The notes under the pieces: generated by a model | The model's database searches: none | Told to the model about the DNA's origin: nothing | What the model saw: the letters and a program-made list of their open reading frames with translations, nothing else | Shown: positions 5,133-21,339 of the stretch, piece after piece | Layout: every line of letters starts with the position of its first letter | Position numbering within the stretch: position 1 is the first letter of the stretch | Translations under genes and position numbers: made by a program | Source: a virus | DNA length: 22,156 bases | Virus record (IMG/VR): IMGVR_UViG_3300022752_000434 | Span: 1-22,156 of that record | Strand: one strand, 5' to 3'

Positions 5133-6425
5133 ATGGTCGATAACACCATCGCCTTGCAGGTCCGCCCCTTCCAGATGCCCAATGTCGGGGAGATCTACGG
5201 GCAGGCCCAGAACATCCAGATGAACCGGATGCGGATGGCCGAGGCGCAGGAAACGGCGCAGGAGCGCAACGCGCTTCGCGGTCTGATGGCCTCCGGCGTT
5301 GATCTGAACACGCCGGAGGGTCTCAGCCAGCTTCGCCGCGTCGCGCCGATGCTGGCGCCGCAGTACGAACAGGCGGCATCTCAGCGGGCGTACCAGACGG
5401 CGCAGGTCGGGCGTCTCAGGGCGCAAACCGAAGCCGACGCGCTCAAGGTGGGCCGCGACCTATTCGCTGCCGCCACAACCCCGGAACAGTACGGCGCCGC
5501 TCGGGCCTATGTGGCCGAACGGTTTCCGCAGTACGCCAGCTCCATTCCCGCGCAGTTCTCAGTCGAGAACGCTCGCCGGATTGCGGAAGGCGCCGAAGGG
5601 CTGCTGCGGCGGGTTAGCGCCGCTGCGGAACGCGCGCCTGACGAGTTTACGCGCATGTTGAGCCAAGCTGGTATTGCACCGGGCAGCCCGGAAGCGCAGG
5701 CGCTGGCGCGAGGGTACTTGGAGCGCCGCGGCACGCCGCCGTCTACGGTCGTCAACATGCCGCAGATCGGCTCCATCCCGCCAGGGTACGAAGTTGTCCG
5801 CGACGAGCAAGGCCGCGTGACCAGTATGCAGGCGATCCCCGGAAGCCCGGCCGCCGCCGAGGAAGCGCGGCGTGCCGAGACTACCCGCGTCCGCACCGAA
5901 GGTACGCAGCAGACGAGCGGCACCGTTATCCGCTCCATCGACCGCGCGGAAGAAATCATGCGGACGTCGGCGCTTCCGACGACGGGATTTTTTGCTGAGA
6001 CGCTCGCCCAGCGCGGCGGGACGGGGGCGCGAGATCTTCGCGCGAACCTCGACACCATCCGCGCCAACATCGGCTTTGATCAGCTCAACCAGATGCGTCA
6101 GGCCAGCCCGACCGGCGGCGCGCTGGGCAGCGTCTCCAACCAGGAAATTAACTACTTGCAGGCGGTGCTGGGCAGCGTTGATCAATCGCAGAGTGCCGGC
6201 GAGTTGCAGCGTAATCTTCGTCATCTGCGCGAGGCATACGAGGAGATCGTTCACTTCGGCCTTGGCAACCGCCCGCCGGTTCAGATCCCCGGACCCGGAG
6301 GCCACGGCACCGCAGAGCCGCCGCGCGGTGGGCCTGCGTCGGCTACGCCTCGCGGCGGCGCACCCGCAGAACGCCCTGGCGAAATCCGAACGCCGAGTGG
6401 TCTTATCATCCGGCCGATCCAGTAG
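5133..6425 (+). CDS. DNA-ejection / internal virion protein (second of three)
   Basis: A 430-residue helical, Gln/Ala/Arg-rich protein. The N-terminus (about 15-110) is a long amphipathic helix region. Residues about 285-375 carry a block familiar from phage internal or ejection proteins: ARDLRANLDTIRANIGFDQL, then SPTGGALGSVSNQEINYLQA and VLGSVDQSQSAGELQRNL. The tail is Pro/Gly rich. No transglycosylase or other enzyme motif is seen. Its position as the middle gene of three matches P22 gp20, but sequence relationship to gp20 itself is not claimed. It starts 1 base after the previous stop and ends 9 bases before the next gene, which has a GGAG-type ribosome site overlapping its stop. Confidence 0.7.
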   Translation: MVDNTIALQVRPFQMPNVGEIYGQAQNIQMNRMRMAEAQETAQERNALRGLMASGVDLNTPEGLSQLRRVAPMLAPQYEQAASQRAYQTAQVGRLRAQTEADALKVGRDLFAAATTPEQYGAARAYVAERFPQYASSIPAQFSVENARRIAEGAEGLLRRVSAAAERAPDEFTRMLSQAGIAPGSPEAQALARGYLERRGTPPSTVVNMPQIGSIPPGYEVVRDEQGRVTSMQAIPGSPAAAEEARRAETTRVRTEGTQQTSGTVIRSIDRAEEIMRTSALPTTGFFAETLAQRGGTGARDLRANLDTIRANIGFDQLNQMRQASPTGGALGSVSNQEINYLQAVLGSVDQSQSAGELQRNLRHLREAYEEIVHFGLGNRPPVQIPGPGGHGTAEPPRGGPASATPRGGAPAERPGEIRTPSGLIIRPIQ

Positions 6426-6434
6426 GAGCGCGCC

Positions 6435-8174
6435 ATGCGGTACGAAGTCACGGCGCCTGACGGACGTCGGTTTGAAGTCGAGGCGCCGGAAGGCGTATCG
6501 CCGGACGTACTCACCCGCGAAGTAGAAGCGGCGTTCCGCTCTATGCCCAGCCCGCAACCGCAACAGCGCGCGGCGGCGCAGCCCATCGGCGTTGGCGAGC
6601 GGATGGCCTACGGCGCTGGCGACGTCGCCCGTGGCGTTGAGCAGCTTGCGGCCGAACGGATGCGCCCGCCGGAGCAGACGGCGATTGGCCGTATGCTTCT
6701 GCGGAACCCCAACATTCGGGCCGTCATGGAGGCGGGCGTTGCTGAAGTGCCCCTGCCGACCGCAGAAGGCGCCCGTGCTGCTGTACGCGCGCGGGAGGAG
6801 GAGTACCAGGCCCGCCGCGCCGCAAGTGGTGACACGGGCTTTGACCTTGCACGCATGGCGGGCGGTATCGTCCCCGCCGCCGTAGCCACCGCAGCTTTCC
6901 GCGCGCCCGTCACGCTGCCCGGCGCAGTCGGTCAGGGTGCGGCGCTGGGTGCGGCGCAGGGTGCGGCTATGCCTGCGTTGGGCGAACCGGAGACGCCGGA
7001 GCGCACCCGCGCGGCTTTGAGCGGCGCTTTGTTCGGCGGCATTGGTGGTGGGGTTGGTCAGGCCGTGGGCCGCGCCATCGCGCCGCGTGTGGATCCGAAC
7101 GTGCGGGCGCTGCGGGAAGCGGGCGTCGAGTTGACGCCTGGCCAAGCGTTTGGTGGTGCGCTGCGGTCGTCGGAAGAACGGCTGGCTGGCGCTCCGATCA
7201 TCGGCGGGGCTATTCAGCGCGCCCAGGAGCGCGGCGTTGAGTCATTCAGCACCGCCGTGGCGAACCGCGTGCTGGCTCCGCTCAACGCGCAAGTGCCCGC
7301 AGAGGTTAAGACCGGGCGGGATCTTGTGTCGCATGTGGCCACCACCGTCAGCGACGCCTACAAAAACCTTGCCAAGAACGTCACTCCGTTCGGTCTGGAT
7401 CGCCAGTTCGCCACCGACGTGACCAACGTCGCGCAGCGGTTCCTTACCCCCGACATGGAACAGGTTCTCGCGCGGTCGCTTCAGCGAGACGTTCTCAGCC
7501 GACTACAGCAGGGCGGCCGCATAGACGGCGACACCTACCTCAACATCGTGGAGTCGCTTGGTCGGAACGCCCGAGAGTACCTTGGGTCTTCGGTGGTGAA
7601 AGAACGTGAGCTGGGCCGCGCTTTTGCGGCTATGCGGGACTCGTTTGACGACCTGCTGTCTCGGACGAACCCGACGCTGACCGATCAAGTCTCGGCGGCG
7701 CGGCAGGCGTACCGCGGGCTTATCCCGCTGGACCGCGCGGCGCGTTCCGCTGAAGGCGGCGTCTTCACACCCGCGCAGTTTGCGGCGGCCGTCCGCGACG
7801 CGGACACCAGCGCCCGCGGCGCCGCCTTTGCCCGTGGCCAAGCCTACATGCAGGATCTGGCCGATGCAGGTGTGCTGGCGATGACGCCCTCGCCGGGGGC
7901 TGCTGGGCTGGCGGATAAGCTGGCCATGGGCGCCGCAGGCGGCGCCGCCGCTAGTGGGATGCTTCCATTGGAGCCGCTCATCGCTGCGGCCTTGGCCAGC
8001 GGCGCGGCCTATTCGCGGCCGTTTTCCAACGCGCTGGTGTCGGCGCTGACCGCCCAGCGCCCCGCCGTCATCCGTGAGTTCGGAGATCTTGTTGCGCGGT
8101 CTGGCGCGCCTGTCAGTGTTCCGTTGAACATGATGCAGTCGATGCCGCCTCCGCAGAACGCCATGGCTCGCTAA
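6435..8174 (+). CDS. DNA-ejection protein, large Ala/Gly-rich (third of three)
   Basis: A 579-residue protein. It begins with YEVTAPDGRRFEVEAPEGVS, a small beta unit seen at the N-terminus of many phage ejection proteins. Residues about 135-220 hold Gly/Ala-rich hydrophobic stretches (AALGAAQGAAMPAL, ALSGALFGGIGGGVGQAVG) that could insert into membranes. Residues about 218-275 contain REAGVELTPGQAFGGALRSS, followed by IIGGAIQRAQERGVESFSTA, a block recurring in phage ejection proteins. The remainder is mostly helical. Position equals P22 gp16, which is needed for DNA passage across the inner membrane; that role is inferred from context. The ribosome site is TAGGAG, overlapping the previous stop. 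Confidence 0.7.
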   Translation: MRYEVTAPDGRRFEVEAPEGVSPDVLTREVEAAFRSMPSPQPQQRAAAQPIGVGERMAYGAGDVARGVEQLAAERMRPPEQTAIGRMLLRNPNIRAVMEAGVAEVPLPTAEGARAAVRAREEEYQARRAASGDTGFDLARMAGGIVPAAVATAAFRAPVTLPGAVGQGAALGAAQGAAMPALGEPETPERTRAALSGALFGGIGGGVGQAVGRAIAPRVDPNVRALREAGVELTPGQAFGGALRSSEERLAGAPIIGGAIQRAQERGVESFSTAVANRVLAPLNAQVPAEVKTGRDLVSHVATTVSDAYKNLAKNVTPFGLDRQFATDVTNVAQRFLTPDMEQVLARSLQRDVLSRLQQGGRIDGDTYLNIVESLGRNAREYLGSSVVKERELGRAFAAMRDSFDDLLSRTNPTLTDQVSAARQAYRGLIPLDRAARSAEGGVFTPAQFAAAVRDADTSARGAAFARGQAYMQDLADAGVLAMTPSPGAAGLADKLAMGAAGGAAASGMLPLEPLIAAALASGAAYSRPFSNALVSALTAQRPAVIREFGDLVARSGAPVSVPLNMMQSMPPPQNAMAR

Positions 8175-8177
8175 GGG
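8173..8177 (+). promoter_or_regulatory. Ribosome binding site (AAGGG) deciding the start at 8187
   Basis: AAGGG lies 9 bases before ATG 8187 but directly against the alternative TTG at 8178, which it could not serve. The site overlaps the stop codon of the preceding ejection gene. Confidence 0.55.
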
Positions 8178-8186
8178 TTGCCACCG

Positions 8187-8417
8187 ATGACGCAAGACCT
8201 TTTGAACATTGTCATCGGCGTGGCCGGGGCGGCGATGGGCTGGATGCTAAAGGTCGTGTGGGACTCGATCCGCCTGCTACAAGACGACATGAAAGACCTG
8301 GAGCGGGCGCTGCATACGCAGTACGTCAGCAAGGACGACTACCGATCCGACATCCAGGAGATTAAGGAGATGGTGAAGGCCATCTTCGACCGTTTGGACC
8401 GCAAAGCAGACAAGTAG
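8187..8417 (+). CDS. Lysis-cassette TM/coiled-coil protein
   Basis: A 76-residue protein with one hydrophobic segment at about residues 5-24 (LLNIVIGVAGAAMGWMLKVV) followed by a charged amphipathic helix to the end (IRLLQDDMKDLERAL, YRSDIQEIKEMVKAIFDRLD), which looks like a coiled coil. An in-frame TTG at 8178 is possible, but the AAGGG site fits the ATG. It sits directly ahead of the holin candidate and endolysin. The single N-terminal membrane segment plus coiled coil resembles a short inner-membrane spanin or an XhlA-like lysis accessory. No partner outer-membrane spanin lipobox was found nearby. The exact role is therefore open; a lysis function is inferred from position and shape. Confidence 0.7.
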   Translation: MTQDLLNIVIGVAGAAMGWMLKVVWDSIRLLQDDMKDLERALHTQYVSKDDYRSDIQEIKEMVKAIFDRLDRKADK

Positions 8418-8426
8418 GAGAACGCT

Positions 8427-8594
8427 ATGGGTATGGACATCTGGCTGGGTCTGGCCCGGCACATTCTGACCGCGCTGGGCGGCGTCTTCGTCGCCCGCGG
8501 ATACATCGACGCCAGCTCGGCCGACGCCGTGGTTGGCGCGGCCATCACCCTTGGTGGCGTGGCGTGGTCTGTAGCCGACAAGAAGATGCGATGA
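8427..8594 (+). CDS. Holin candidate, Pam3-gp28-like, 55 aa
   Basis: A 55-residue gene that begins ATG-GGT-ATG-GAC after a GTAGGAG ribosome site (8416-8420) and ends TGA at 8592-8594. The sequence starts MGMDIWLGLARHILTALGGV and continues through a hydrophobic stretch to a basic end (VADKKMR). Two hydrophobic segments are seen, about residues 12-25 and 34-49, separated by a short polar turn (RGYIDASSAD), with a positively charged C-terminus. This is the layout of small two-segment holins, and the motif set matches the Pam3-gp28 putative holin family as I remember it. The stop codon overlaps the endolysin start as ATGA. It would form the inner-membrane lesion that releases the signal-less endolysin. 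Confidence 0.75.
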   Translation: MGMDIWLGLARHILTALGGVFVARGYIDASSADAVVGAAITLGGVAWSVADKKMR

Positions 8595-9202
8595 TCTCTG
8601 CGAAGCTGATGCAGGGTCTGAACTGGTCAGATCCTGCTGAGTGGGCAGGGGCGTTGAGTGGCCCCTGCCGCCGCTTTGAGATCAACACGTCGAAGCGGGT
8701 GGCGATGTTCCTCGCCAACACCGGCCATGAGACGGCTGGCGGGCGGCGCCTGCGCGAAAATCTTAACTACCGCCCCGAAGCCCTGGTGAAACAATGGCCC
8801 CGATATTTTTCGCCTGAGTACGCCGCCGAGGTGGGCCGCACCGACAAGCAGGCCGCCGACCAGAAGGCGATTGCCGAGGCGGCCTATAACGGGCGCATGG
8901 GGAACAAAAACCTAGGCGACGGTTGGCGCTTCATCGGCCGCGGTCTGATGCAGACCACGGGCCGGTATAACTACGAGCGCCTAGCCGAGATCGTAAACAT
9001 GCCGGTGGATGATCTGCCCGAGTGGCTGGAGACGCGCGAAGGCGCGGCCGAAAGCGCCGCGATCTTCTGGCACGCCAACAACTGCAACGACCTGGCTGAC
9101 GCAGACGCCGTTGACCGCTGCCGCCAGCGGATCAACGGCGGCCTCATCGGGATCGACGACGTGCGCGCCCGCTACGCTACTGCGCTCGGGCTTCTGACGT
9201 AG
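8591..9202 (+). CDS. Endolysin, glycoside hydrolase family 19 (chitinase-like lysozyme)
   Basis: A 203-residue muralytic enzyme expected to cut the glycan strand of peptidoglycan. GH19 signatures are clear: ANTGHETAGGRRLRENLNY at residues 42-60 supplies the two catalytic acids (E47 and E56), and AYNGRMGNKNLGDGWRFIGRG, followed by LMQTTGRYNYERL (99-131), is the substrate-cleft block. There is no signal peptide or separate wall-binding domain, so release depends on a holin. The start at 8591 was chosen over an upstream in-frame codon at 8564 because it overlaps the holin stop (ATGA), and the upstream residues would lie inside the holin gene. Its 3' end overlaps the convergent minus-strand gene by 26 bases. 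Confidence 0.93.
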   Translation: MISAKLMQGLNWSDPAEWAGALSGPCRRFEINTSKRVAMFLANTGHETAGGRRLRENLNYRPEALVKQWPRYFSPEYAAEVGRTDKQAADQKAIAEAAYNGRMGNKNLGDGWRFIGRGLMQTTGRYNYERLAEIVNMPVDDLPEWLETREGAAESAAIFWHANNCNDLADADAVDRCRQRINGGLIGIDDVRARYATALGLLT

Positions 9203-9380
9203 CTGCGTTCAAGATCTCGCGCCGCTCGCGGAGGTTCCGCAGAACGGTGAACCGCTGGTGCATACGGATCAGAAGGGTGGGGCGCCGCTCACCCTTCAGT
9301 TCGTCCTGGATCATCTTCTCCAGCTCGTCTTCGCGCAGGCTACCCAATCGGGCGTTTAGCGCCCGCCAGTTAAGGCTCAC
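9177..9380 (-). CDS. Small conserved phage protein, coiled-coil-like, function unknown
   Basis: A 67-residue, highly charged helical protein beginning SLNWRALNARLGSLREDELE, with a basic middle (GERRPTLLIRMHQRF). I recognise the pattern from unassigned small phage proteins but know no function. The GTG start at 9380 overlaps the helicase stop (GTGA), with an AAGGGAA ribosome site 7-9 bases upstream, so it is the last gene of the minus-strand cluster. The 3' end runs 26 bases into the endolysin gene on the other strand, leaving no room for a classical terminator between the convergent units. Confidence 0.7.
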   Translation of the reverse strand: MSLNWRALNARLGSLREDELEKMIQDELKGERRPTLLIRMHQRFTVLRNLRERREILNAATSEARAQ

Positions 9381-10726
9381 GTCGGTGTTCCCTTCAGTTC
9401 ATCCAAGGCAATGTCTGACACCGCCCGCTTGTCATACAGCGCGGCCCAGATACGCTCGTCAATAGTCTTGTTACTTAGTAACACGTAGACCCAGACCGGC
9501 TTGGTCTGGCCGCCGCGGTGCAGCCGCCCGACCGTCTGCTCGTACAGTTCCAGCGACCAGGGCAGCGAGACGAACACCATCTTGTTGCCGCCGTGCTGGA
9601 GGTTCAGCCCGTGCCCGGCCGACTTCGGGTGGATCAGCAGCAGCTCGATCTTGCCGGCGTTCCATCGGGCGATGGCGTCAGGGTGGTCGAGCGTCGCCGC
9701 GTTGGGGTAGCGGCGCAGCAGTTCGGCCAGCTCCTCGCGGTAGTTGTACACCACGATGGTGTTGTCCCGCTGGTTCTCGGTCAGGATGTCGTCCAGCAGG
9801 TCGAACTTGTGCGGCGAGAACCAGATCGCCTGCTGCTCTACCGCAAACTTACCGGCCGTTTCTTGCGCTAGGGTCCGGCTATTGTAAACGAACCCGCTGG
9901 CCATCTGTTGCAGCTTGGTCGTGACAGCCGCCGCCGACAGCGCCGTGATCTGCTGGCCGCTCAGTTCGACGAGGTAGTCCTTCTTCATCTTCTCGTAGGG
10001 CGCCCGGTCAGCCAAGTCGCAACGCATCTCGGTCGTGTGCAGCGGCGGCAGGCGGTCCTTGTACTCGCCAGGCTCCAGGACATAAGTGTCCGATCGGATG
10101 GCGTCCATCACGGCCCCAAGTGCGCCTTTGCGCGGCATCCATTCGCCGTACTCACGGTTGAGGCAGACGAAGTACTTCTGGAGAAAGGCGCCCTTCGACC
10201 GGCCCAGCAGCTTCTGGTCCACGATCTTGCATTGGCCGAAGACGTCCTCCAGGCCGTTTGACGTGAAGGATCCGGTCAGGCCCCAGCGCACGTTGAACGG
10301 CTCAATGTTCTTCTCCAGCGCCTTGAACCGCTTCCCCGACGGGTTCTTCAGCCGGGTCAGCTCGTCGAAGACAATGCCGTCAAAGCTGCTGAGATCCGGC
10401 GGCGCGGTCTGAAGGTTGTCGTAGTTGGTGACGACCACCTTGGCGTCCGACGCGAACGCCGCAGCCCGCTGGCGGGGCGTGCCGACGGCGACGGCCATCG
10501 ACAGCCCCGGCGCCCACTTCGGCCCCTCGACCGGCCAGACGTCGGTGCAGACGCGCTTCGGCGCCAGCACCAGCCACCGCCTGACGTGGCCGTCGGTCAC
10601 CATCGCCGCCATGGCCGTCAGGGTGATCGCCGTCTTGCCGGCTCCCACGGGCGCCAGGATCATCCCCCGGTCATGCGCGTAAAGGAAGTCGGCCGCATCA
10701 TCCTGGTAGGGGCGGAGCTTAACCAC
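9377..10726 (-). CDS. SNF2-like superfamily 2 helicase/ATPase
   Basis: A 449-residue helicase using the GTG at 10726, which has a GGAG site 7 bases upstream. The frame extends to 10777, but those extra residues are low-complexity (Ser/Gly/Ala) and lie deep inside the upstream gene. Motifs in order: Q-like motif LRPYQ (4-8), Walker A APVGAGKT (25-32), motif Ia LVLAPKRV, DExx box DELT at 121-124, motif III LTGSF, motif V KSAGHGLNL, motif VI QTVGRLHRGGQ near the C-terminus. Phage SNF2-type proteins of this size lack accessory domains and commonly neighbour VRR-NUC genes, as here; they are thought to act in replication or recombination of phage DNA. It overlaps both neighbours (8 bases and 4 bases). 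Confidence 0.9.
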   Translation of the reverse strand: MVKLRPYQDDAADFLYAHDRGMILAPVGAGKTAITLTAMAAMVTDGHVRRWLVLAPKRVCTDVWPVEGPKWAPGLSMAVAVGTPRQRAAAFASDAKVVVTNYDNLQTAPPDLSSFDGIVFDELTRLKNPSGKRFKALEKNIEPFNVRWGLTGSFTSNGLEDVFGQCKIVDQKLLGRSKGAFLQKYFVCLNREYGEWMPRKGALGAVMDAIRSDTYVLEPGEYKDRLPPLHTTEMRCDLADRAPYEKMKKDYLVELSGQQITALSAAAVTTKLQQMASGFVYNSRTLAQETAGKFAVEQQAIWFSPHKFDLLDDILTENQRDNTIVVYNYREELAELLRRYPNAATLDHPDAIARWNAGKIELLLIHPKSAGHGLNLQHGGNKMVFVSLPWSLELYEQTVGRLHRGGQTKPVWVYVLLSNKTIDERIWAALYDKRAVSDIALDELKGTPT

Positions 10727-11177
10727 ACTTCCGCTCCCACCGGATGCGCGCGACGCCGCCAGACCCGATGTCCTCACGCGGTCGGCTGGGCGCGGTCCAG
10801 CCCGCGCGCGGCGCCAGTTCCTGTACCGGCGTCCACCCGGCCCCGCGCAGGGACGCGCCCGTCTCGCCGTGCTGGGTGTACGTCACGCACTTCTCGTACC
10901 CCATAGCCGACGCGACCCGCACAATCGCGCCGTACAGCATCGAGTTGGCGTTCCTGGTGCCGTCCGTGCAGGTCCGCGTGACCTCCAAGGTCAGGCCGTC
11001 GTCCAACATGCGCGCCACCGGGCGGCTGGCCACACCCACGCCCACAAGGCGCATCTGGTCGTCGTACAGGCCCACGGAAAACTTATGCCCGATTGGCGGG
11101 CGGTTGTGCCGGTGGTGCGCCTTCACGAACTCCTGCGCGAGCTTGAGCGTCACAGGCCGTATCTTGAGCCCAGGCAT
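10719..11177 (-). CDS. XF1762-family phage protein, GNAT-like
   Basis: A 152-residue protein with the family pattern: LAQEFVKAHHRHNRPPIGHKF (about 13-33), GVGVASRPVAR, LEVTRTCTDGTRNANSMLYG (about 64-83), then VASAMGYEKCVTYTQHGETG and ASLRGAGW. The helix-strand order and the late GETGASLRGAGW segment resemble an acetyltransferase fold, but no substrate is established and I would not name an activity. The conserved HHRHN segment begins near residue 20, so the ATG at 11177 cannot be moved far downstream. As a result the gene overlaps the end of the upstream nuclease gene by 95 bases. The last 8 bases overlap the helicase start. Confidence 0.8.
   Translation of the reverse strand: MPGLKIRPVTLKLAQEFVKAHHRHNRPPIGHKFSVGLYDDQMRLVGVGVASRPVARMLDDGLTLEVTRTCTDGTRNANSMLYGAIVRVASAMGYEKCVTYTQHGETGASLRGAGWTPVQELAPRAGWTAPSRPREDIGSGGVARIRWERKCG
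10734..10737 (-). promoter_or_regulatory. Ribosome binding site (GGAG) deciding the helicase start
   Basis: GGAG on the minus strand, 7 bases before GTG 10726. It lies within the last codons of the upstream XF1762-family gene. It supports starting the helicase at MVKLRPYQ rather than 17 codons earlier. Confidence 0.5.
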
Positions 11178-11427: not shown

Positions 11428-11513
11428 GCCTGACGGATAGCACCACAGAACCTCTTGCGCAACAGGATGTGTTGTCGTATGGTGCGGGCAAGCGAGGTTC
11501 AGTAGAGGGCGAG
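11428..11513. promoter_or_regulatory. Divergent control region between the two replication-gene units
   Basis: This 86-base gap separates the minus-strand VRR-NUC gene from the plus-strand DUF2800 gene. On the plus strand TTGCGC (11455-11460) and TATGGT (11478-11483) stand 17 bases apart, a weak sigma-70-like pair that would start transcription about 25 bases before ATG 11514. A short inverted repeat, CAACA (11460-11464) and TGTTG (11470-11474), lies between the two boxes and could be an operator. I could not find an equally convincing promoter for the minus strand. All of this is pattern matching by eye. Confidence 0.4.
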
Positions 11514-12653
11514 ATGGCAGCACACTCCAACATCGTCGGCGGCTCGACCGCCAAGCGGGTCATCGCTTGCCCTGGGTCGGTCAAGCTGGTCCAGCAGATG
11601 CCGCCCCGCCCTTCCTCCCGCTACGCCGACGAGGGCACCCTCTGCCACACGATCATGGAGGCGGTGCTGACGCAGGACTGCCAGCCCGAGGAGTTTATCG
11701 GTCGTACACTCGGCAACGTCACCGTCACGCAGGAGCTAATTGAGACGAAGATCCGCCCGGCCATGGCGGCGCTGGGCGAGATCGACCCGAACTACGACAT
11801 GACCTACGAGTGCGAGGCCATCGTCGGTTTCGGTGACGCGCTTCCGGGCGTCTTCGGCTCGGCCGATCTGGTCGGCCGCATTGGCGACACGGCCATTGTG
11901 CTGGACTGGAAGTTTGGGGACGGCGTGGACGTCGCCGTTGAGGAGAACCCGCAGGCGATGTTTTACGCCGCCGCGGCGATGCGGACGCCGAAAGTCGCCT
12001 GGGCCTTCAAGGGCGCCACCAGCATTGAGTGCATCATCGTCCAGCCGACAGCGGCCGTGCCGGTGAAGTGCTGGCGTACGACGCCCGACCGCATCCGCGA
12101 CTTTGAACGGCAGTTGTTCGCCGCCGTGAAGGAGGCGCTGGGGCCGGATCCGTCCATGCAGACGGGCGACCATTGCCGCTGGTGCGCCGCCAAGCCGGTT
12201 TGCCCGCTGCTGACCGGCGCTGTGGACCGGGCGCTGAAGACCAGCCTCCAGAACATCGACGCCACCCGGCTGGGCAAGGTGCTGGAACACGCGCCCATGA
12301 TCGAGGAGTACCTTGCAAGCGCGCGGGCGCTGGCAGAACAGATGTTGGCGGAGGGTGTCCCCGTGCCCGGCTTCAAGCTGGTGCCGAAGCGCGCGATCCG
12401 CCAATGGGTGAACGACGACGAGGCAAAGGCGGCGCTGTCGCGCCTCGGCCTCGACGAAACGGAATTGACGGTGACGAAGCTGGTCAGCCCGGCGCAGGCC
12501 GAGAAGGCGCTGAAGAAGCGCAAGATCGAACTGCCGCGCGAACTGGCCGTCGCCGTCTCCTCAGGCACCACGCTGGCCCCGGAGAGCGATCCCCGGCCAG
12601 CGGCGTTGCAGATCGGCCGTCAGTTGGCGGCTGCTCTTGGTAAGATCGTCTAA
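11514..12653 (+). CDS. DUF2800 Cas4/RecB-like PD-(D/E)XK nuclease
   Basis: A 379-residue protein. The Cas4-like core is visible: C19 in RVIACPGS, H45 in GTLCHTIMEA, D118 in GSADLVGRI, and D131/K133 in AIVLDWKFGDG, the metal-binding pair of PD-(D/E)XK nucleases. C221, C224 and C230 in DHCRWCAAKPVCP could, with C19, hold an iron-sulfur cluster as in Cas4 and AddB. A C-terminal extension of about 140 residues is predicted helical. DUF2800 proteins are regular members of phage replication modules and probably act as exonucleases that make 3' single strands. The ATG at 11514 was preferred over 11469 because it has a GAGGG site and the family begins close to MAAHSNIVGGSTA. Confidence 0.88.
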   Translation: MAAHSNIVGGSTAKRVIACPGSVKLVQQMPPRPSSRYADEGTLCHTIMEAVLTQDCQPEEFIGRTLGNVTVTQELIETKIRPAMAALGEIDPNYDMTYECEAIVGFGDALPGVFGSADLVGRIGDTAIVLDWKFGDGVDVAVEENPQAMFYAAAAMRTPKVAWAFKGATSIECIIVQPTAAVPVKCWRTTPDRIRDFERQLFAAVKEALGPDPSMQTGDHCRWCAAKPVCPLLTGAVDRALKTSLQNIDATRLGKVLEHAPMIEEYLASARALAEQMLAEGVPVPGFKLVPKRAIRQWVNDDEAKAALSRLGLDETELTVTKLVSPAQAEKALKKRKIELPRELAVAVSSGTTLAPESDPRPAALQIGRQLAAALGKIV

Positions 12654-12671: not shown

Positions 12672-13322
12672 ATGAACGAAGTCACGAAGTTCGGTAACGC
12701 CAACCTGCCGTCCGTGCAGTCGCTCTCGCAGTCCCTGCGGGCGCTCAACACGGGCACGACGCTCGGCAACACCGTCATCCTCAAGATGGACAAGACCGGC
12801 CACTGGGTCTTCGGCGCCGACCAGACTGAGGTCGAGGCCGACAGCCTGTGGGCCATCAACCCGTTCAGCTTCACCCACGGCTACATCGCCTGGGGTGACG
12901 GCGAAGTGCTGGGAGAGAAGATGGTGTCGGTGCAGCAGCCGCTGCCCGAGCTGGAGCCGGCGCCGCCGCAGTCGAAGCGCGGCTGGGAGCCGCAGGTCGG
13001 CATGTCGCTGAAGTGCATCAACGGCGAAGACAAGGACATGGAAGCCCGCTTCTCGACGACCTCGATCGGCGGCAGGCGCGCCGTGCAGGTGCTGGCGCTC
13101 GCCATCGCCACGCAGGTGGAGAAGGACCAGTCCAAGCCGGTGCCGGTGGTGCGGCTGAAGAAGGAACACTACACCCACAAGAGCTACGGCCGTATCTACA
13201 CGCCGGTGTTCGAGGTGGTGGAGTGGGTCAGCCTCGACGGCCCTGACGCGGAGGTGGCCGAGGAGGCAGCCGCCGAGGAGCCGGCGCCGGAGGCGGGCCG
13301 CCGTCGTCGTCGCTCGGCCTGA
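12672..13322 (+). CDS. Phage protein in the ssDNA-binding (DUF2815) slot, SSB-like by context
   Basis: A 216-residue protein with an AAGGA site 7 bases before the ATG. The N-terminal half is beta-rich with many aromatics (HWVFGADQTEVEADSLWAIN, then FTHGYIAWGDGE). A second block (about 120-190) ends KSYGRIYTPVFEVVEWVSLDG. Residues 192-208 are acidic (AEVAEEAAAEEPAPEA) and the last seven are GRRRRRSA-like, strongly basic. In many phages DUF2800 is followed by the DUF2815 ssDNA-binding protein; I do not see DUF2815 motifs here, so an analogous SSB is inferred from position, aromatic beta content and the acidic tail. It could instead be another replication accessory. A terminator-like hairpin follows it. 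Confidence 0.6.
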   Translation: MNEVTKFGNANLPSVQSLSQSLRALNTGTTLGNTVILKMDKTGHWVFGADQTEVEADSLWAINPFSFTHGYIAWGDGEVLGEKMVSVQQPLPELEPAPPQSKRGWEPQVGMSLKCINGEDKDMEARFSTTSIGGRRAVQVLALAIATQVEKDQSKPVPVVRLKKEHYTHKSYGRIYTPVFEVVEWVSLDGPDAEVAEEAAAEEPAPEAGRRRRRSA

Positions 13323-13361: not shown

Positions 13362-13367
13362 GGAGGT
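13362..13367 (+). promoter_or_regulatory. Strong ribosome binding site (GGAGGT)
   Basis: GGAGGT, 6 bases before ATG 13374 and just after the terminator-like hairpin. It is the best Shine-Dalgarno match in the window and fixes the start of the PAPS-reductase-like gene. Confidence 0.7.
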
Positions 13368-13373
13368 GCAGTC

Positions 13374-14075
13374 ATGAAGCACGTCGTGGGCTTGAGCGGC
13401 GGTAAGGACTCTACGGCCTTGGCGCTACGGCTGGCCGAGATAGAACCGCGAGACTACGAGTACATCTGCAACGAGACGGGCAACGAACTGCCCGCGATGC
13501 AGGACCACTGGAAGAAGCTGGAAGACCTGCTGGGGAAGCCGATCCTTCGGGTCCGCTACACGAAGGATCTGGAGGGATCCATCCGCCAGATGAACATGCT
13601 GCCCAGCGTGTTCGCGCGGTGGTGTACCCGCGTGCTGAAGATCCAGCCGACCATCGCCTATATGGAGAAGCTGCCGCCCGGTTCCGTTCTGTACGTCGGC
13701 CTCCGCGCCGACGAGGAGGAGCGGAAGGGGCTGTTCGGCGAGGACATCACCATCCGCTTCCCCATGCGGGAGTGGGGCTGGAAAGAAGCCGACGTGTGGG
13801 CCTACCTCGACAAGCGCGGCGTCTGCATCCCGAAGCGGACGGACTGCGCTTGGTGCCCGTACCAGCGCCTCGGTGAGTGGCGCGACTTGTACGAGAACTA
13901 CCCCGACCTGTGGGCGCAGGGCGCCGCGCTGGAGAAGGAGATGGGTGCGACGTTCCGCAGCCCCGGCCGCGACACTTGGCCAGCAGACATGGAAGCCCTT
14001 GGCCGTGAGTTTGCCAGCGGCCGTAAGCTGCGCGCGTTCAAGCGAGGCGAAACCTGCCGCGTCTGCTCGCTATGA
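13374..14075 (+). CDS. PAPS-reductase/DndC-like adenine nucleotide alpha-hydrolase
   Basis: A 233-residue protein. The PP-loop SGGKDS at residues 8-13 binds the ATP/PAPS phosphates. FARWCTRVLKIQP (80-92) corresponds to the conserved Cys-Thr/Lys block of phage and DndC-type members. Cysteines C158 and C161 (DCAWCPYQ) and C228 and C231 (CRVCSL, at the extreme C-terminus) form a CxxC...CxxC set that could hold an iron-sulfur cluster or zinc. Classical PAPS reductases make sulfite; phage members inside replication operons have no settled substrate and may act on DNA or nucleotides as DndC does in phosphorothioation. No DndA/IscS-like desulfurase is visible here. Its stop overlaps the polymerase start (ATGA), so the two are translationally coupled. 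Confidence 0.87.
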   Translation: MKHVVGLSGGKDSTALALRLAEIEPRDYEYICNETGNELPAMQDHWKKLEDLLGKPILRVRYTKDLEGSIRQMNMLPSVFARWCTRVLKIQPTIAYMEKLPPGSVLYVGLRADEEERKGLFGEDITIRFPMREWGWKEADVWAYLDKRGVCIPKRTDCAWCPYQRLGEWRDLYENYPDLWAQGAALEKEMGATFRSPGRDTWPADMEALGREFASGRKLRAFKRGETCRVCSL

Positions 14076-16042
14076 TCCTATGGCTCGATTTCGAGACGCG
14101 CAGCCGCTGCGACCTGACGAGCGCGGGCGCGTACAACTACGCTCAGGATGCCAGCACCGAGGTGCTGTGCATGTCCTACGCCTTCGGTGACGAGGAGGTC
14201 ACGACTTGGCTACCCGGCCAGCCCTTCCCCGACCGGGTGGCGCACCATCGGGGCCAGATTAGGGCACATAATTCCGCGTTCGAAAGACTTATTTTCTGGT
14301 ACGTCCTGGCCCCCGACCAAGGCTTCCGCGAGCCCGCGCTGGAGCAGTTCTACTGCACCGCCGCCCAGGCCCGCGCCAACTGCGGCCCCGGCAGCCTGGA
14401 GGACGTGGGCCGCTTCGCTGGCGCGTCCATGAAGAAGGACCACCGCGGCGCCCAACTGATCCGCGCGCTGTCGATCCCCCGCCCCGACGGCACCTTCCGC
14501 GAGGACGCGGCGCTCCTGGCCGAGATGGTCAGCTACTGCGAAACCGATGTCCGTGCGATGCGCGCCGTCAGCAAGGCGATGCGCGACCTGTCCGACGAGG
14601 AGCTGCTGGACTACCACGTCAACGAGCGCATTAACGACCGGGGCGTCCTGGTGGACACGGCGCTCTGCCAGGCCGCCGTGCGCTACGCTGGCGAGGAACT
14701 GGTCGAGATCGAGCAGACCGTCCGCGAGGTGACGGGCGGCGCCATCACCAGCGTCCGCAGCCCCAAGATGCGGGCGTGGGTCGAACACCGGGTCGGGCCG
14801 CAGGCCCGCAAGCTGATGGTCGTCCACAAGGACGGCGAGGCCAAGGTATCCATCGACAAGAACGTCCGCGCGAACCTGCTGGTCCTGGCCGCCGAGAACC
14901 CGGAGGAGGTGCCGCCCGACGTGGCCAAGGTCATCCAATGCGCGGACGATCTCTGGGCCTCCAGCGTGGCGAAGTTCAACCGGCTGGCCGAATTGGCCGA
15001 CCCCGAGGACCAGCGGGTGCGCGGCGCCTTCGTCTTCGCTGGCGGGGCCGCGACCGGCCGCGCGTCCAGCTACGGCGCCCAGGTCCACAACTTCCCCCGC
15101 AAGTGCGCCGCCGCGCCGGATGACGTCCGCCAGGCTATGGTGCGGGGGCACCAGATCGTCCCGGCTTACGGCAAGCGGGTGACGGACGTGCTGAAGGGGA
15201 TGCTGCGCCCGGCGCTGCTGCCCGCCCCCGGCAAGGTTCTGATCGCCGCCGACTGGTCGGCCATCGAGGCGCGGGTGAACCCCTGGCTGTCGAAGACGAA
15301 CAGCGGCGCCGAGAAGCTGGGGATCTTCGAACGCGGCGAGGACGTCTACAAGGTCAACGCCGCCGCGACCTTCCGCACCACCGTCGAAAACGTGACGGAG
15401 GACCAGCGCCAAGTCGGCAAGGTGCAAGAACTTGCGTGTGGTTTCGCCGGGGGCGTCGGCGCCTTCGCCGCGATGGGCCGCATCTACGGCATCAACCTGC
15501 CCGAGAGCGAGGCCAAGAAGATGGTGGATGCGTGGCGCCGGGCGAACTCCTGGGCCGTCCCCTTCTGGCAGGGGCTGGAGGAAGCGTACACGCGGGCGAT
15601 GCGGAACCGCGGGCATGAATTCACCGCCGGGCGGATAACCTATTTGTTCGACGGCCAGCACCTTTGGTATGCTCTGCCTTCCGGCCGCGTCCTCCGTTAT
15701 CCCTTCGCGCGGCTTGAGCCCGAGGGCGTCACCTATGCGAAAGCCTCCTGGAAGCCCGCCGCGGACGCGAAAGAGTGGCCCCGCGCGCGGCTCTGGAAGG
15801 GGCTCGCGTGCGAGAACGTGACCCAGGCCACCGCGCATGATTTGCTACGCCATGCCCTGCGCCAGCTAGAGGCCGAGGGTCACGACGTCGTGCTGCACGT
15901 CCATGACGAGGTGGTGGTCGAGACGAACGACCCGGAGGCGGCGCAGGCCGCCATGCAGCGCATCATGTGTTCACCACCAGCCTGGGCGGCAGGGATACCG
16001 CTCAACATCGAGGCTGCGGTGATGACACGCTACGGTAAATAG
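14072..16042 (+). CDS. DNA polymerase I (family A) with 3'-5' exonuclease
   Basis: A 656-residue replicative polymerase. The proofreading domain is intact by motif: Exo I LDFETRS (D6, E8), Exo II RAHNSAFE (about residues 65-72), Exo III SYCETDVRAM (about 151-160). There is no 5'-3' nuclease domain. Polymerase motif A is IAADWSAIEARV with D394 and E399, motif B is R446-QVG-K450-VQELACGFAGG, and motif C is LHVHDEVVVE with H611, D612 and E613. At the site equivalent to E. coli Phe762 (four after the motif B lysine) there is Leu454. The ATG overlaps the previous stop by 4 bases. The enzyme probably copies the phage genome together with the downstream primase-helicase. Confidence 0.95.
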   Translation: MILWLDFETRSRCDLTSAGAYNYAQDASTEVLCMSYAFGDEEVTTWLPGQPFPDRVAHHRGQIRAHNSAFERLIFWYVLAPDQGFREPALEQFYCTAAQARANCGPGSLEDVGRFAGASMKKDHRGAQLIRALSIPRPDGTFREDAALLAEMVSYCETDVRAMRAVSKAMRDLSDEELLDYHVNERINDRGVLVDTALCQAAVRYAGEELVEIEQTVREVTGGAITSVRSPKMRAWVEHRVGPQARKLMVVHKDGEAKVSIDKNVRANLLVLAAENPEEVPPDVAKVIQCADDLWASSVAKFNRLAELADPEDQRVRGAFVFAGGAATGRASSYGAQVHNFPRKCAAAPDDVRQAMVRGHQIVPAYGKRVTDVLKGMLRPALLPAPGKVLIAADWSAIEARVNPWLSKTNSGAEKLGIFERGEDVYKVNAAATFRTTVENVTEDQRQVGKVQELACGFAGGVGAFAAMGRIYGINLPESEAKKMVDAWRRANSWAVPFWQGLEEAYTRAMRNRGHEFTAGRITYLFDGQHLWYALPSGRVLRYPFARLEPEGVTYAKASWKPAADAKEWPRARLWKGLACENVTQATAHDLLRHALRQLEAEGHDVVLHVHDEVVVETNDPEAAQAAMQRIMCSPPAWAAGIPLNIEAAVMTRYGK

Positions 16043-16047: not shown

Positions 16048-16053
16048 AGAGTG

Positions 16054-18363
16054 ATGGACTTCGTAGAGTTCCTGCAAGGGCTCGCGCCCAAGGGTGAGAC
16101 GCTGCTGGTGGTGCGGCAGAAGGCGGTCATGCGGGATGGCCAGCAGGCGCTGCACGCCGACGGCACGCCGAAGTACACCTGGCCTGCCTTCATGCCGTCC
16201 AAGCGGCGGAACGACGGCGCGTGGTATGGCAACACCGGCTCCTTCATCATCGACCGCTTCAAGGACGGCCAGCCGTCCGCATCCGCCGGCAACTGCGAAT
16301 ACGTGCTGGTGATGATGCTGGACGACGTGGGCACCAAGGCGAAGACGCCGCCCCTGCCGCCGACATGGATCATGCAGTCGAGCGAGGACTCGTTCCAGTG
16401 GGGCTACGCCTTCGCGGAGCAGCCGACCAAGGGCGAGTTCACCGCGGCCATGACGGCCATCGCAGAGGCCGGCTACACAGACCCTGGTGCGGTCAACGCC
16501 GTCCGCAACTTCCGACTGCCTGGGTCGGTCAACGTCAAGCCTGGCCGCGACGGCTTCAAGGCGCGGTTGGTCGAGTTCCACCCCAAACGCGAATTCACCC
16601 TGCCGCAGATCTGCGAGGCGCTGGGCGTCACGCCAGCGCCCGCTGACACGGCCTCCCAGAGCGTCTTCCGCCTGCGTGACACGGGCAAGGACGCGGTGCT
16701 GGAGTGGCTGAACGAGCAGGGCCTCGTCCTGTCAGCGCCCAACCAAGAGGGCTGGCTGGGCGTCGTCTGCCCGAACGCGGCCGAACACACGACCGGCCAG
16801 AACGAGGCCCGCTACAATCCGATCAACCGCGCCTTCTGCTGCTATCACGGCCACTGCGAGCATCTGGACAGCAAGGCGTTCTTGCAGTGGGTCTGCGACC
16901 AGGGCGGCCCGCGCGCTAACCACGGCCTGCGGGACGAACTGCTGGCGGAGCAGATGGCCCGCACCCTCGACAAGCTGACGCCGACGGAGAACTTCCCCGA
17001 CCGCGCCGCCGAGATCATCGCAGAGGTGGACCGCAAGGAGCTGGGTCGGGTCGAGAAGGCGGGCTGGTACGAGCGGTTCGCTTACGTCCTCTCGGATGAC
17101 TGCTATTTCGACTTGGAGGACCGGCGGGAGATCAGCCGGAACGCCTTCAACGCGCTGTTCCGCCACATCCCTTGCCGGTCCATCCACAGCGGCAAGAAGA
17201 TCGAGGCGTCCACCTGCTACGACGAGAACCGCCAAGCGATGGGCGCCCGCGTCCTGGTGGGCGTGACCTACGCCGCTGGCGAGAGCGTGCTGGTGTCGCG
17301 CAACGCTGAGGTCTACGGCAACCGCTGGGTCAACGCCCGTCCCGACGTGTCGAAGTCGCCTGGCGGCGACGTGACGCGCTGGCTCGACCATTGCCGCCGG
17401 CTAGTGCCGGATCCGCGCGACCTTGATCACATCTGGGACGTGATGGCGTTCAAGGTCCAGAACCCGCGCGTGAAGGTGAACCACGCGATCCTCCACGGCG
17501 GCCACGGCGGCAGCGGCAAGGATACGATGTGGGCGCCCTTCATGTGGGCGGTCTGCGGCCCGACGCTGGTGAACCGTGGCCTCATCGACGGCGACACAAT
17601 CAACAGCCAGTGGGGCTACGCGCTGGAGAGCGAGGTTATCCTTCTGAACGAACTGAAGGAACCGGAGGCGCGGGAGCGTCGGGCGCTGGCGAACCGGCTG
17701 AAGCCGATCATCGCCGCCCCGCCGGAATACCTGGTGGTGAACCGCAAGGGCCTGCACCCTTACGACACGCTGAACCGGGCGTTCGTCCTGGCGTTCTCCA
17801 ACGACATGATCCCGCTCACGCTGTCGAGCGATGACCGGCGCTGGTTTGTGATCTGGTCCACGGCGACCCGCATGGATCCGAAGGAAGCGTTGGAGATGTG
17901 GCGCTGGTACAAGGACGAAGGCGGCTTCGCGGCCATCGCCCGCTGGCTCTACGCCCGCGACGTGTCGGCGTTCAATCCTGGCGCGGCGCCGCCCATGACG
18001 GACGTCAAGGCGTCGCTGGTCGAGCATAGTATGAGCATGGCTGAAAGCGTGATCGTCGAGTTGGTGCGGAGCCGCCAAGGTGAGTTCGCCCGCGGCGTGA
18101 TCGGTGGGCCGTTTCAGGCGGTCTGTGATCGTCTCCAGGCGCTGATGCCGTCGGGTGCGAAGGTGCCGCCCGCGGCGCTGCTGCACGCGATCCAAGAAGC
18201 CGGCTGGGTCGATATGGGCCGGCTCTACTCGACGGATTACCTGACGAAGAAGCATGTCTTCGCTGCGCCGGAGATGGCGTCGTCCTATACGAAAAGCGAC
18301 CTTCGGCGCATGATCGAGCAGGGCTCTGCGCCGAAGGTCGTGGAGCTGAAAGCCGTCAAGTGA
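16054..18363 (+). CDS. Primase-helicase: PrimPol-like domain, zinc finger and DUF5906 (SF3-like) ATPase
   Basis: A 769-residue protein. The N-terminal primase-polymerase-like domain shows MMLDDVGTK (about 87-94, candidate metal-binding D90/D91), QSSEDSFQWGYAF and RNFRLPGSVNVKP (151-163). A zinc-binding segment follows, starting at C239 (CPNAAEH, then FCCYHGHCEHL). The C-terminal DUF5906 ATPase has Walker A GGHGGSGKDT with K489, an acidic strand LLNELKEPEA, NRLKPIIAAPPEYLVVNRKG, and a sensor-like LAFSNDMIP before DRRWFVIW. These proteins prime and unwind phage DNA and usually accompany a family A polymerase and DUF2800, as here. A GTG three bases upstream is possible. Confidence 0.88.
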   Translation: MDFVEFLQGLAPKGETLLVVRQKAVMRDGQQALHADGTPKYTWPAFMPSKRRNDGAWYGNTGSFIIDRFKDGQPSASAGNCEYVLVMMLDDVGTKAKTPPLPPTWIMQSSEDSFQWGYAFAEQPTKGEFTAAMTAIAEAGYTDPGAVNAVRNFRLPGSVNVKPGRDGFKARLVEFHPKREFTLPQICEALGVTPAPADTASQSVFRLRDTGKDAVLEWLNEQGLVLSAPNQEGWLGVVCPNAAEHTTGQNEARYNPINRAFCCYHGHCEHLDSKAFLQWVCDQGGPRANHGLRDELLAEQMARTLDKLTPTENFPDRAAEIIAEVDRKELGRVEKAGWYERFAYVLSDDCYFDLEDRREISRNAFNALFRHIPCRSIHSGKKIEASTCYDENRQAMGARVLVGVTYAAGESVLVSRNAEVYGNRWVNARPDVSKSPGGDVTRWLDHCRRLVPDPRDLDHIWDVMAFKVQNPRVKVNHAILHGGHGGSGKDTMWAPFMWAVCGPTLVNRGLIDGDTINSQWGYALESEVILLNELKEPEARERRALANRLKPIIAAPPEYLVVNRKGLHPYDTLNRAFVLAFSNDMIPLTLSSDDRRWFVIWSTATRMDPKEALEMWRWYKDEGGFAAIARWLYARDVSAFNPGAAPPMTDVKASLVEHSMSMAESVIVELVRSRQGEFARGVIGGPFQAVCDRLQALMPSGAKVPPAALLHAIQEAGWVDMGRLYSTDYLTKKHVFAAPEMASSYTKSDLRRMIEQGSAPKVVELKAVK

Positions 18364-20293: not shown

Positions 20294-20484
20294 AGGCGGC
20301 GGCCCAGCGTCGCGTTGGCCTGGATCCGGACGTCGCGGTTGCACCAAGTCCAACACGCGCCGTCCTCATCCTGGAAGCAGACCCACATCAGATCAGCCTC
20401 CGGGCCGTAGTCGATCACCAGATGCGCCCACGCCTTCCCTTTAGGCGTGAGCAGCGGCAGGGGTGGGTTGAGCTGCGTCAGCAT
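20290..20484 (-). CDS. Small conserved phage protein, function unknown
   Basis: A 64-residue protein with the pattern LTPKGKAWAHLVIDYGPEAD, then LMWVCFQDEDGACWTWCNRD and VRIQAN, which I recognise from many phage early regions without any assigned function. Eight of its residues are Trp or Cys, and the fold is probably a small beta barrel. The ATG at 20484 joins the HNH stop as TGATG. An alternative TTG at 20493 has an AGGAG site only 4 bases away. Downstream it overlaps the HPPC-motif gene (ATGA). Confidence 0.75.
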   Translation of the reverse strand: MLTQLNPPLPLLTPKGKAWAHLVIDYGPEADLMWVCFQDEDGACWTWCNRDVRIQANATLGRRL

Positions 20485-20969
20485 CAGCGCCAATTTTCTC
20501 CTCGCGCTATTCGACTAACTTGCGTTTGGGATAGCCCAAACTGTCGGCCCAACGCAGCGCCACCGTAAAAACGTCGGCCGTTAGCAGACAGGAACGCCGA
20601 ACGGATAGCTTGCGCTTGTTCTGGCGTCGCTTTGGCTGAAGGATTGGAGTCTTTTGGCAAACTAACGCGGCGATTTTTTGCGCCCATGTCTTTAATATTG
20701 TCGGCTTGCGTACCTAGAAAAAGATGTTCGGGGTTAACGCAAGAGGGATTATCGCAGCGATGGCAAACACACATTCCGGCGGGTATGACGCCGCACTCTC
20801 CTTGGTATACGACGCGGTGAGCCAGCGCCGTTCTACTTTTTCGCCCGGCGCCAACGACGCCGTAGCCAAAACGGGTCGTATAGCCTTCGAACAACCAACA
20901 GCCGCTATTTGGTTCGGGTATGCTTCGCGCCAGAACTCTCGCCGAAAGCCGTTTCGCACCATCCTGCAT
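20484..20969 (-). CDS. HNH homing-type endonuclease with C-terminal HTH
   Basis: A 161-residue free-standing endonuclease. The HNH core runs AHRVVYQ (50-56), then CHRCDNPSCVNPEHLFLGTQ (69-88) with H51, H70, N79, H82 and zinc-type cysteines C69, C72 and C77, then ADNIKDM. Residues about 115-161 (ATPEQAQAIRSAFLS, then FYGGAALGRQFGLSQTQVSR) look like a helix-turn-helix for DNA recognition. The ATG at 20969 has a GGAGG site 7 bases upstream and was preferred over 21014. DNA here is visibly poorer in G+C than neighbouring genes, which is common for homing endonucleases gained by transfer. It is not inside another gene, so it is probably a mobile intergenic element cutting a relative's genome. Confidence 0.88.
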   Translation of the reverse strand: MQDGAKRLSARVLARSIPEPNSGCWLFEGYTTRFGYGVVGAGRKSRTALAHRVVYQGECGVIPAGMCVCHRCDNPSCVNPEHLFLGTQADNIKDMGAKNRRVSLPKDSNPSAKATPEQAQAIRSAFLSANGRRFYGGAALGRQFGLSQTQVSRIARGENWR

Positions 20970-20976
20970 TAGCTGT

Positions 20977-20981
20977 CCTCC
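20977..20981 (-). promoter_or_regulatory. Ribosome binding site (GGAGG) deciding the HNH start
   Basis: GGAGG on the minus strand, 7 bases before ATG 20969. The longer frame beginning at 21014 would overlap the upstream gene and encode non-conserved residues. Confidence 0.55.
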
Positions 20982-21000
20982 AAAGCAGCGCGCAAAGGTA

Positions 21001-21339
21001 TTAGTCCCCGCCACGGTATTCCAGCCCGGTGACAGCGGCGGTTTCGATGACAGCGGTGGCCTCCTGCGCCCGCCGCCGGCGGATCTCGTGGTCGGCGGCA
21101 GCCTTAACGGCGTCCTCTAAGCGGTTCAGCGCCGCCATCACGAAATCGCTGGCGTCGTCGGTCTTGGCTGTTATGGAGACGTCGCCGCAATCCATGAGGC
21201 CTCGGAGCGTCTTCAGCAGATCAACGCTGGTGGATAACAGTTGCGCCAAGCTATCGCGCAACCATTCGGCGTCTTCCGCCGGCATTACTTCGAAAACGCC
21301 TTCCATTTGCTGCGACGGCATGGGCTTGTCACCTTCCAT
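21001..21339 (-). CDS. Small helical phage protein, function unknown
   Basis: A 112-residue, mostly helical protein (EDAEWLRDSLAQLLSTSVDL, then AALNRLEDAVKAAADHEIRR). The ATG at 21339 has a GGAGG site 9 bases upstream. The frame reaches 21462, but that extension lies inside the upstream gene and is low quality. It overlaps the upstream gene's 3' end by 11 bases. No domain is recognised; a coiled-coil or dimeric helical fold is likely. It sits in a row of small minus-strand genes typical of phage early or accessory regions. Confidence 0.6.
   Translation of the reverse strand: MEGDKPMPSQQMEGVFEVMPAEDAEWLRDSLAQLLSTSVDLLKTLRGLMDCGDVSITAKTDDASDFVMAALNRLEDAVKAAADHEIRRRRAQEATAVIETAAVTGLEYRGGD

Follow-up and report, generated by a model that had tools for sequence, protein, structure and literature searches.

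We detected an orphan homologue of SspD, a protein of the SspABCD phosphorothioation systems, next to the gene of a family A DNA polymerase (polA) in a viral DNA stretch of 22,156 nucleotides (IMG/VR record IMGVR_UViG_3300022752_000434, hereafter the window). We propose, with a probability of about 0.6, that this gene is exchangeable DNA-modification cargo beside polA with an anti-restriction role, and that its product would transfer sulfur together with a cysteine desulfurase of the host. The reading is based on the homology of the protein, its conserved cysteines, its orphan status, its position at polA, its accessory distribution in related phages and its exchange with modification genes.

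The gene and its position at the polymerase gene

The gene lies on the plus strand with the following neighbours and signals:

11469-12653, +: DUF2800 / PD-(D/E)XK exonuclease (Pfam, PHROG)
12672-13322, +: gene before the slot, annotated as nucleotidyltransferase (phrog_9528, E 3e-17; no Pfam match)
13362-13368, +: Shine-Dalgarno match GGAGGTG, 7 nt, located 5 nt 5' of the ATG
13374-14075, +: orphan SspD-like PP-loop sulfurtransferase gene, 233 aa (ORF call, Pfam/PHROG, PADLOC, alignment, profile comparison)
14072-14075, +: ATGA, 4-bp overlap of the sulfurtransferase stop and the polA start
14072-16042, +: family A DNA polymerase, polA (PF00476, E 9e-21; phrog_17, E 2e-89)
16051-18363, +: primase/helicase, DUF5906 (Pfam, PHROG)

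The window also encodes an SNF2/DEAD-type helicase (PF00176, PF00271) at 9377-10777 on the minus strand, opposite to the replication genes, and an HNH_3 homing-type endonuclease at 20484-21014, likewise on the minus strand.

The protein encoded by the ORF at 13374-14075 matches Pfam PAPS_reduct (E 4e-9) and PHROG 424 (E 4.5e-42). SspD-like proteins of nearly constant length and 67-97% identity are encoded at 61 IMG/VR loci, two of which are part-gene ends of one contig, and the dN/dS of the gene against its relatives is 0.02-0.16 (NG86), the ratios being rough with dS near saturation. The ORF is thus not a chance one, and it is under strong purifying selection. The sequence-only reading had assigned to this gene the best ribosome site in the window and an overlap with the polymerase start, and both observations were confirmed: the GGAGGTG match is the longest among the 18 gene starts compared, the polA start has no Shine-Dalgarno match, and the 4-bp overlap of stop and ATG supports coupling to polA.

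Most relatives have the same overlap, whichever of the two genes comes first. Among the context loci, which were selected by protein rather than by neighbourhood and include near-identical contigs (49 different proteins), polA flanks the gene in 56 of 60 full-length loci, with the gene before polA in 22 and after it in 34. The two genes overlap by 4 bp in 48 loci and by 13 bp in five (by the start call made here), and an inserted gene or a gap is found in three. The members located away from the family A polymerase are L027, L030, L031 and L045; in the last of these (5995-10472), going by a reading of the sequence only, the SspD-like gene overlaps an SF2-type helicase-like ORF, with a DPPY methylase-like ORF 2.7 kb downstream and polA not adjacent. 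Gene order at polA has switched at least twice, counting well-supported branches, and probably four to five times, the simplest reconstructions being four switches on the gene tree and five on the polA tree. The two trees disagree in places, and this disagreement, together with the order switches, indicates a mobile gene that comes back to one and the same neighbourhood.

Relationship to SspD and orphan status

Judged by profile matches, the phage protein has its nearest characterised relative in SspD, a component of the SspABCD phosphorothioation systems. Among curated models, PADLOC SspD (PDLC02782) matches best (E 2.3e-46, 157 bits), while the PADLOC DndC match has an E value of 5e-5 and the DndC model TIGR03183 scores 17.3 bits, missing its curated cut-off of 290 bits. 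Profile-profile comparison of the phage family gave E 3e-51 for SspD, E 4e-11 for DndC and a probability of 27% for CysH. On the SspD model, operon-type SspDs score 299-401 bits, the phage family and its phage and prophage kin 117-172 bits, and other phage PP-loop proteins, together with three from the polA slots described below, 39-94 bits. The initial label of a PAPS-reductase/DndC-like protein therefore holds for the PP-loop/PAPS-reductase family but not for DndC: the profile comparison that had been suggested as a check does match DndC, but SspD far better, and DndC lacks the C-terminal CxxC. On these grounds (profile E value, PADLOC match and TIGR03183 score) we rejected DndC as the nearest family.

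The motifs that relate the protein to SspD, and one that sets it apart, are located as follows:

13395-13412, +: PP-loop SGGKDS, residues 8-13 (alignment of 42 proteins)
13617-13643, +: RWCTRVLKI motif, residues 82-90, including C84 (R82, C84, T85 and K89 without exception in SspD and the phage proteins; motif also in DndC)
13845-13856, +: first CxxC, C158/C161 (invariant in phage proteins and SspD; also in DndC)
13950-13985, +: TFRSPGRDTWPA block, residues 193-204, signature of the phage family, TFRS..RDTWPA (alignment)
14055-14066, +: C-terminal CxxC, C228/C231, in the tail TCRVCSL (similar tail in SspD, none in DndC)

The residue alignment comprised 42 phage, prophage and SspD proteins, with L084 left out owing to a miscalled ORF frame. 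Its invariant positions include S8, G9, G10, D12 and S13 (K11 is present in at least 90%), R82, C84, T85 and K89, G109, R111, D113, E114 and R117, C158 and C161, W202, and C228 and C231. Five invariant cysteines are hence common to the phage proteins and SspD; the pairs C158/C161 and C228/C231 are where the sequence-only reading had placed them, and C84 is a further one that it had not mentioned. Among 29 aligned relatives, C32 is invariant as well as these five. The GLRADE motif is also common to the phage protein and SspD-type proteins, and a CxxC tail like TCRVCSL ends 10 of the 11 SspDs inspected (GCLICSL, SCLICML). DndC has the equivalents of C84, C158 and C161 without the C-terminal pair. 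Within the TFRSPGRDTWPA block, R195, R199, D200, W202 and P203 are present in all phage and prophage members shown, whereas only W202 is matched in SspD, the other positions being gapped or occupied by different residues; TFRS..RDTWPA is found in the phage clade alone.

An alignment-based scan of bacterial genomes found 80 loci with two kinds of relative; a first, single-sequence scan for chromosomal relatives in genomes had found none. The first kind (L064-L074) is 45-57% identical to the phage protein and was taken for prophage or phage fragments from its small, dense genes. The second kind, 33-41% identical, resides in chromosomes. In L143, which was scanned gene by gene, SspB, SspC, SspD and SspF/G-like proteins are encoded in a row, and the other chromosomal loci used have the same gene-size layout; L088 was confirmed to encode a desulfurase of the SspA/DndA type, and the identification of SspD was confirmed for L094, L100 and L086. 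A search for loci related to the Dunaliella virus SI2 protein confirmed none. A more distant SspD-like protein is encoded between the terminase and portal genes of L367 (Oscillospiraceae phage NatCom_21982).

In the maximum-likelihood tree, the phage and prophage proteins form one clade (100/99), which lies outside the SspD clade and beside it, joined at a node of moderate support (86/68); the tree has several long outgroup branches and contains no BrxP, for which the reference-sequence search returned nothing. AlphaFold models reached a mean pLDDT of 85 and 90, with low confidence for the C-terminal tail including its CxxC. The solved structures matched were CysH (1sur, 6vpu) and thiolases such as TtuA, NcsA and LarE, and with TM scores of about 0.4-0.55 these matches indicate the superfamily only.

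Model searches of the window and of 21 phage records that carry the gene (22-48 kb, possibly fragments) found no Aminotran_5 desulfurase, SspB or SspC; the 22nd record searched, L158, has no SspD-like gene, and the control genome G002 was positive for all three. This agrees with the early impression that no other Dnd component is visible, as far as cysteine desulfurase, SspB and SspC in these records are concerned. Because sspA, sspB and sspC are not encoded alongside, we refer to the protein as SspD-like and do not file it as SspD.

Accessory distribution and exchange slots

The SspD-like gene was present in six of the first 80 loci of a polA-seeded sample, and 51 of the 74 loci without a copy have ample sequence on both sides. 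On this count we rejected the reading that the polymerase module always includes the gene, which is instead accessory and present in only about 6% of related phages.

The content of the two slots flanking polA, the second of which lies between polA and the DUF5906 primase/helicase in sister phages, was counted over 140 de-duplicated polA-seeded loci (127 slots before and 137 after polA; sense ORFs of at least 90 aa). The slots hold 46 sense ORFs, namely 8 SspD-like, 3 other PP-loop, 8 DNA methyltransferase, 3 Mom, 1 DpdA, 13 HNH and 10 other ORFs. At the neighbouring exo-12672 junction, which is of the same tight kind and served for comparison, an insert was found in 2 of 117 cases, both HNH. 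Slot families were assigned by Pfam/PHROG (C5 methylase PF00145, phrog_757 methyltransferase, N6_N4_Mtase PF01555, Mom PF25680, DpdA PF23859, PAPS_reduct PF01507 and HNH), except for the L177 methyltransferase, which was called on its DPPY motif only, with no Pfam/PHROG match. The counts are based on slot representatives, so that modification genes elsewhere are undercounted. On the opposite strand there are 13 methyltransferase or Mom genes upstream of the exonuclease, and a second modification site is therefore kept in these phages. The SspD-like gene occurs together with a methyltransferase in L001, L002, L008, L014 and L026, and with a second PP-loop enzyme in L020 and L046-L048. In the latter loci (L020, 2921-3769; L046-L048), a distant second PP-loop protein (SGGRTS) is encoded directly 3' of the SspD-like gene, which places two sulfurtransferase-type enzymes in tandem. 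The slots in L144-L347 also exchange DruA and the phrog_3704 'ferredoxin', and in L305 (4387-4998) a DruA-domain protein, a Druantia component, stands alone in the slot before polA.

The SspD-like gene thus shares one site with known modification genes and is exchanged for them there, as expected of DNA-modification cargo; as a swappable gene, it probably serves against restriction and not in sulfate metabolism. A role in modifying DNA against host restriction had already been raised from the sequence, and the methyltransferases, Mom and DpdA in the slots of sister phages make it probable. HNH ORFs account for 13 of the 46 in the slots, so that genes could also have inserted next to polA because the site is permissive and was spread by homing nucleases.

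Proposed function, alternatives and known systems

We hypothesize that a host cysteine desulfurase (of the IscS/SufS class, or a resident SspA) would pass persulfide sulfur to the cysteines of the phage protein, of which C84 and the pairs C158/C161 and C228/C231 are putative persulfide or Fe-S ligands. The PP-loop would split ATP to activate the acceptor, sulfur would be placed on phage DNA or on a DNA precursor during synthesis by the polymerase, and the sulfur-modified genome may then escape restriction. As phosphorothioate is what SspD systems produce, it would also be the likeliest product here, with a thiolated base or nucleotide as the alternative. In its most economical form, the proposal would be a minimal, replication-coupled system in which a single SspD-like enzyme, acting with the polymerase of the phage and a desulfurase of the host, thiolates or phosphorothioates the phage's own DNA in the absence of SspB, SspC, DndD and DndE; we regard this form as doubtful. 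For SspD, pyrophosphatase activity and binding to the desulfurase SspA have been described (PMC7188994), and SspA is thought to hand sulfur to SspD, with SspB and SspC handling the DNA (PMC7188994, PMC12707154). In Vibrio cyclitrophicus, phosphorothioation needs SspA despite a chromosomal iscS, and DndA is no substitute (PMC7188994). The main objection is therefore that a lone SspD relative working on IscS is not a given, since IscS cannot replace SspA in V. cyclitrophicus; IscS does, however, serve Dnd systems (PMC10853773).

An orphan SspD-like protein without partners could also be an anti-defence decoy, mimicking SspD to bind host SspA or SspB/SspC and thereby blocking or hijacking phosphorothioation or SspE/SspFGH sensing. 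The retention of the SspD C-terminal tail, with the linker replaced by the phage-specific TFRS..RDTWPA block, would be consistent with this, but all catalytic-type residues are kept under strong purifying selection, which a decoy would not need, and the slot is exchanged with modification enzymes, so that we consider a decoy unlikely. Thiolation of a target other than DNA (tRNA or a free nucleotide), as performed by TtuA and NcsA of the same fold, might aid translation or replication. The predicted fold matches TtuA, NcsA and LarE, several of which carry [4Fe-4S] clusters, and the coupling to polA would also suit a nucleotide substrate; yet SspD, as the nearest characterised relative, functions in the phosphorothioation of DNA, and the slot company consists of DNA modification genes, which leaves such a target improbable. 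That the gene is an auxiliary metabolic gene for a true assimilatory PAPS/APS reductase (CysH), boosting sulfate reduction and cysteine supply of the host, would agree with its Pfam/PHROG annotation as PAPS reductase, with a predicted CysH fold (TM about 0.5) and with the common reading of viral 'cysH' (PMC9301287), but it appears very unlikely given the lack of the CysH PP-loop and catalytic tail, the low profile probability, the failure of E. coli CysH to match the SspD model and a slot company of DNA-modification rather than metabolic genes.

Phage PAPS-reductase-like genes are known, and their role has been said to merit more study (PMC11437467). Viral 'cysH' has been described as a globally conserved auxiliary metabolic gene, used to argue for viral sulfur cycling, and was ranked as the most frequent among sediment genes 'not involved in DNA modification' (PMC9301287). 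For the SspD-like phage clade, on the other hand, sequence and slot company point to DNA modification and not to sulfur metabolism, and a phage counterpart to bacterial phosphorothioation defence would follow. In the open-licence literature we found no paper that links genes of this type to a polA-flanking slot for exchangeable modification genes, and none that shows a phage enzyme to produce phosphorothioate in virion DNA. Whether an SspD-type protein can work in the absence of SspB and SspC could be tested simply with the SspD-like phage gene.

Among known systems, CysH resembles the phage protein in fold and differs in having no SGGKDS, C84, C158 or C161, with SFGIQA at the PP-loop (E. coli) and the tail motif ECGLH. 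BrxP of type 4 BREX (PDLC02510) shares the PAPS_reduct domain at a partial-model E value of 1e-9, but its 779-position model has extra domains (PMC12839542) that the phage protein lacks; BrxP was rejected as an assignment, as it calls for a PAPS domain in a large protein and a BREX locus, whereas the 233-aa protein stands alone, and no BrxC/SspC-type ATPase was found in the window. DndC (TIGR03183) has the PP-loop, the RWCT motif and one CxxC in common with it, but is about 506-589 aa long in the sequences used and has no C-terminal CxxC. PptA (PDB 21fy chain C; 270 aa vs 233 aa) is the sole PDB chain matched by sequence at E < 0.001 (E 2e-4), and our search found no publication on it. The SspD-type hits in Sinorhizobium phiLM21-like prophages are likewise orphan proteins matching the PADLOC SspD model, but with much weaker E values (about 1e-11 to 1e-15) and an affiliation that was left open (PMC12429752). 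SspD itself (PDLC02782) is longer (about 260-290 aa), is encoded with SspA, SspB and SspC partners that the phages lack, and falls in a separate clade from the phage protein, which has its own TFRS..RDTWPA block and a short linker; the two nevertheless share SGGKDS, RWCT..LK, GLRADE, the five cysteines with the C-terminal CxxC, and about 35-40% identity over residues 1-190.
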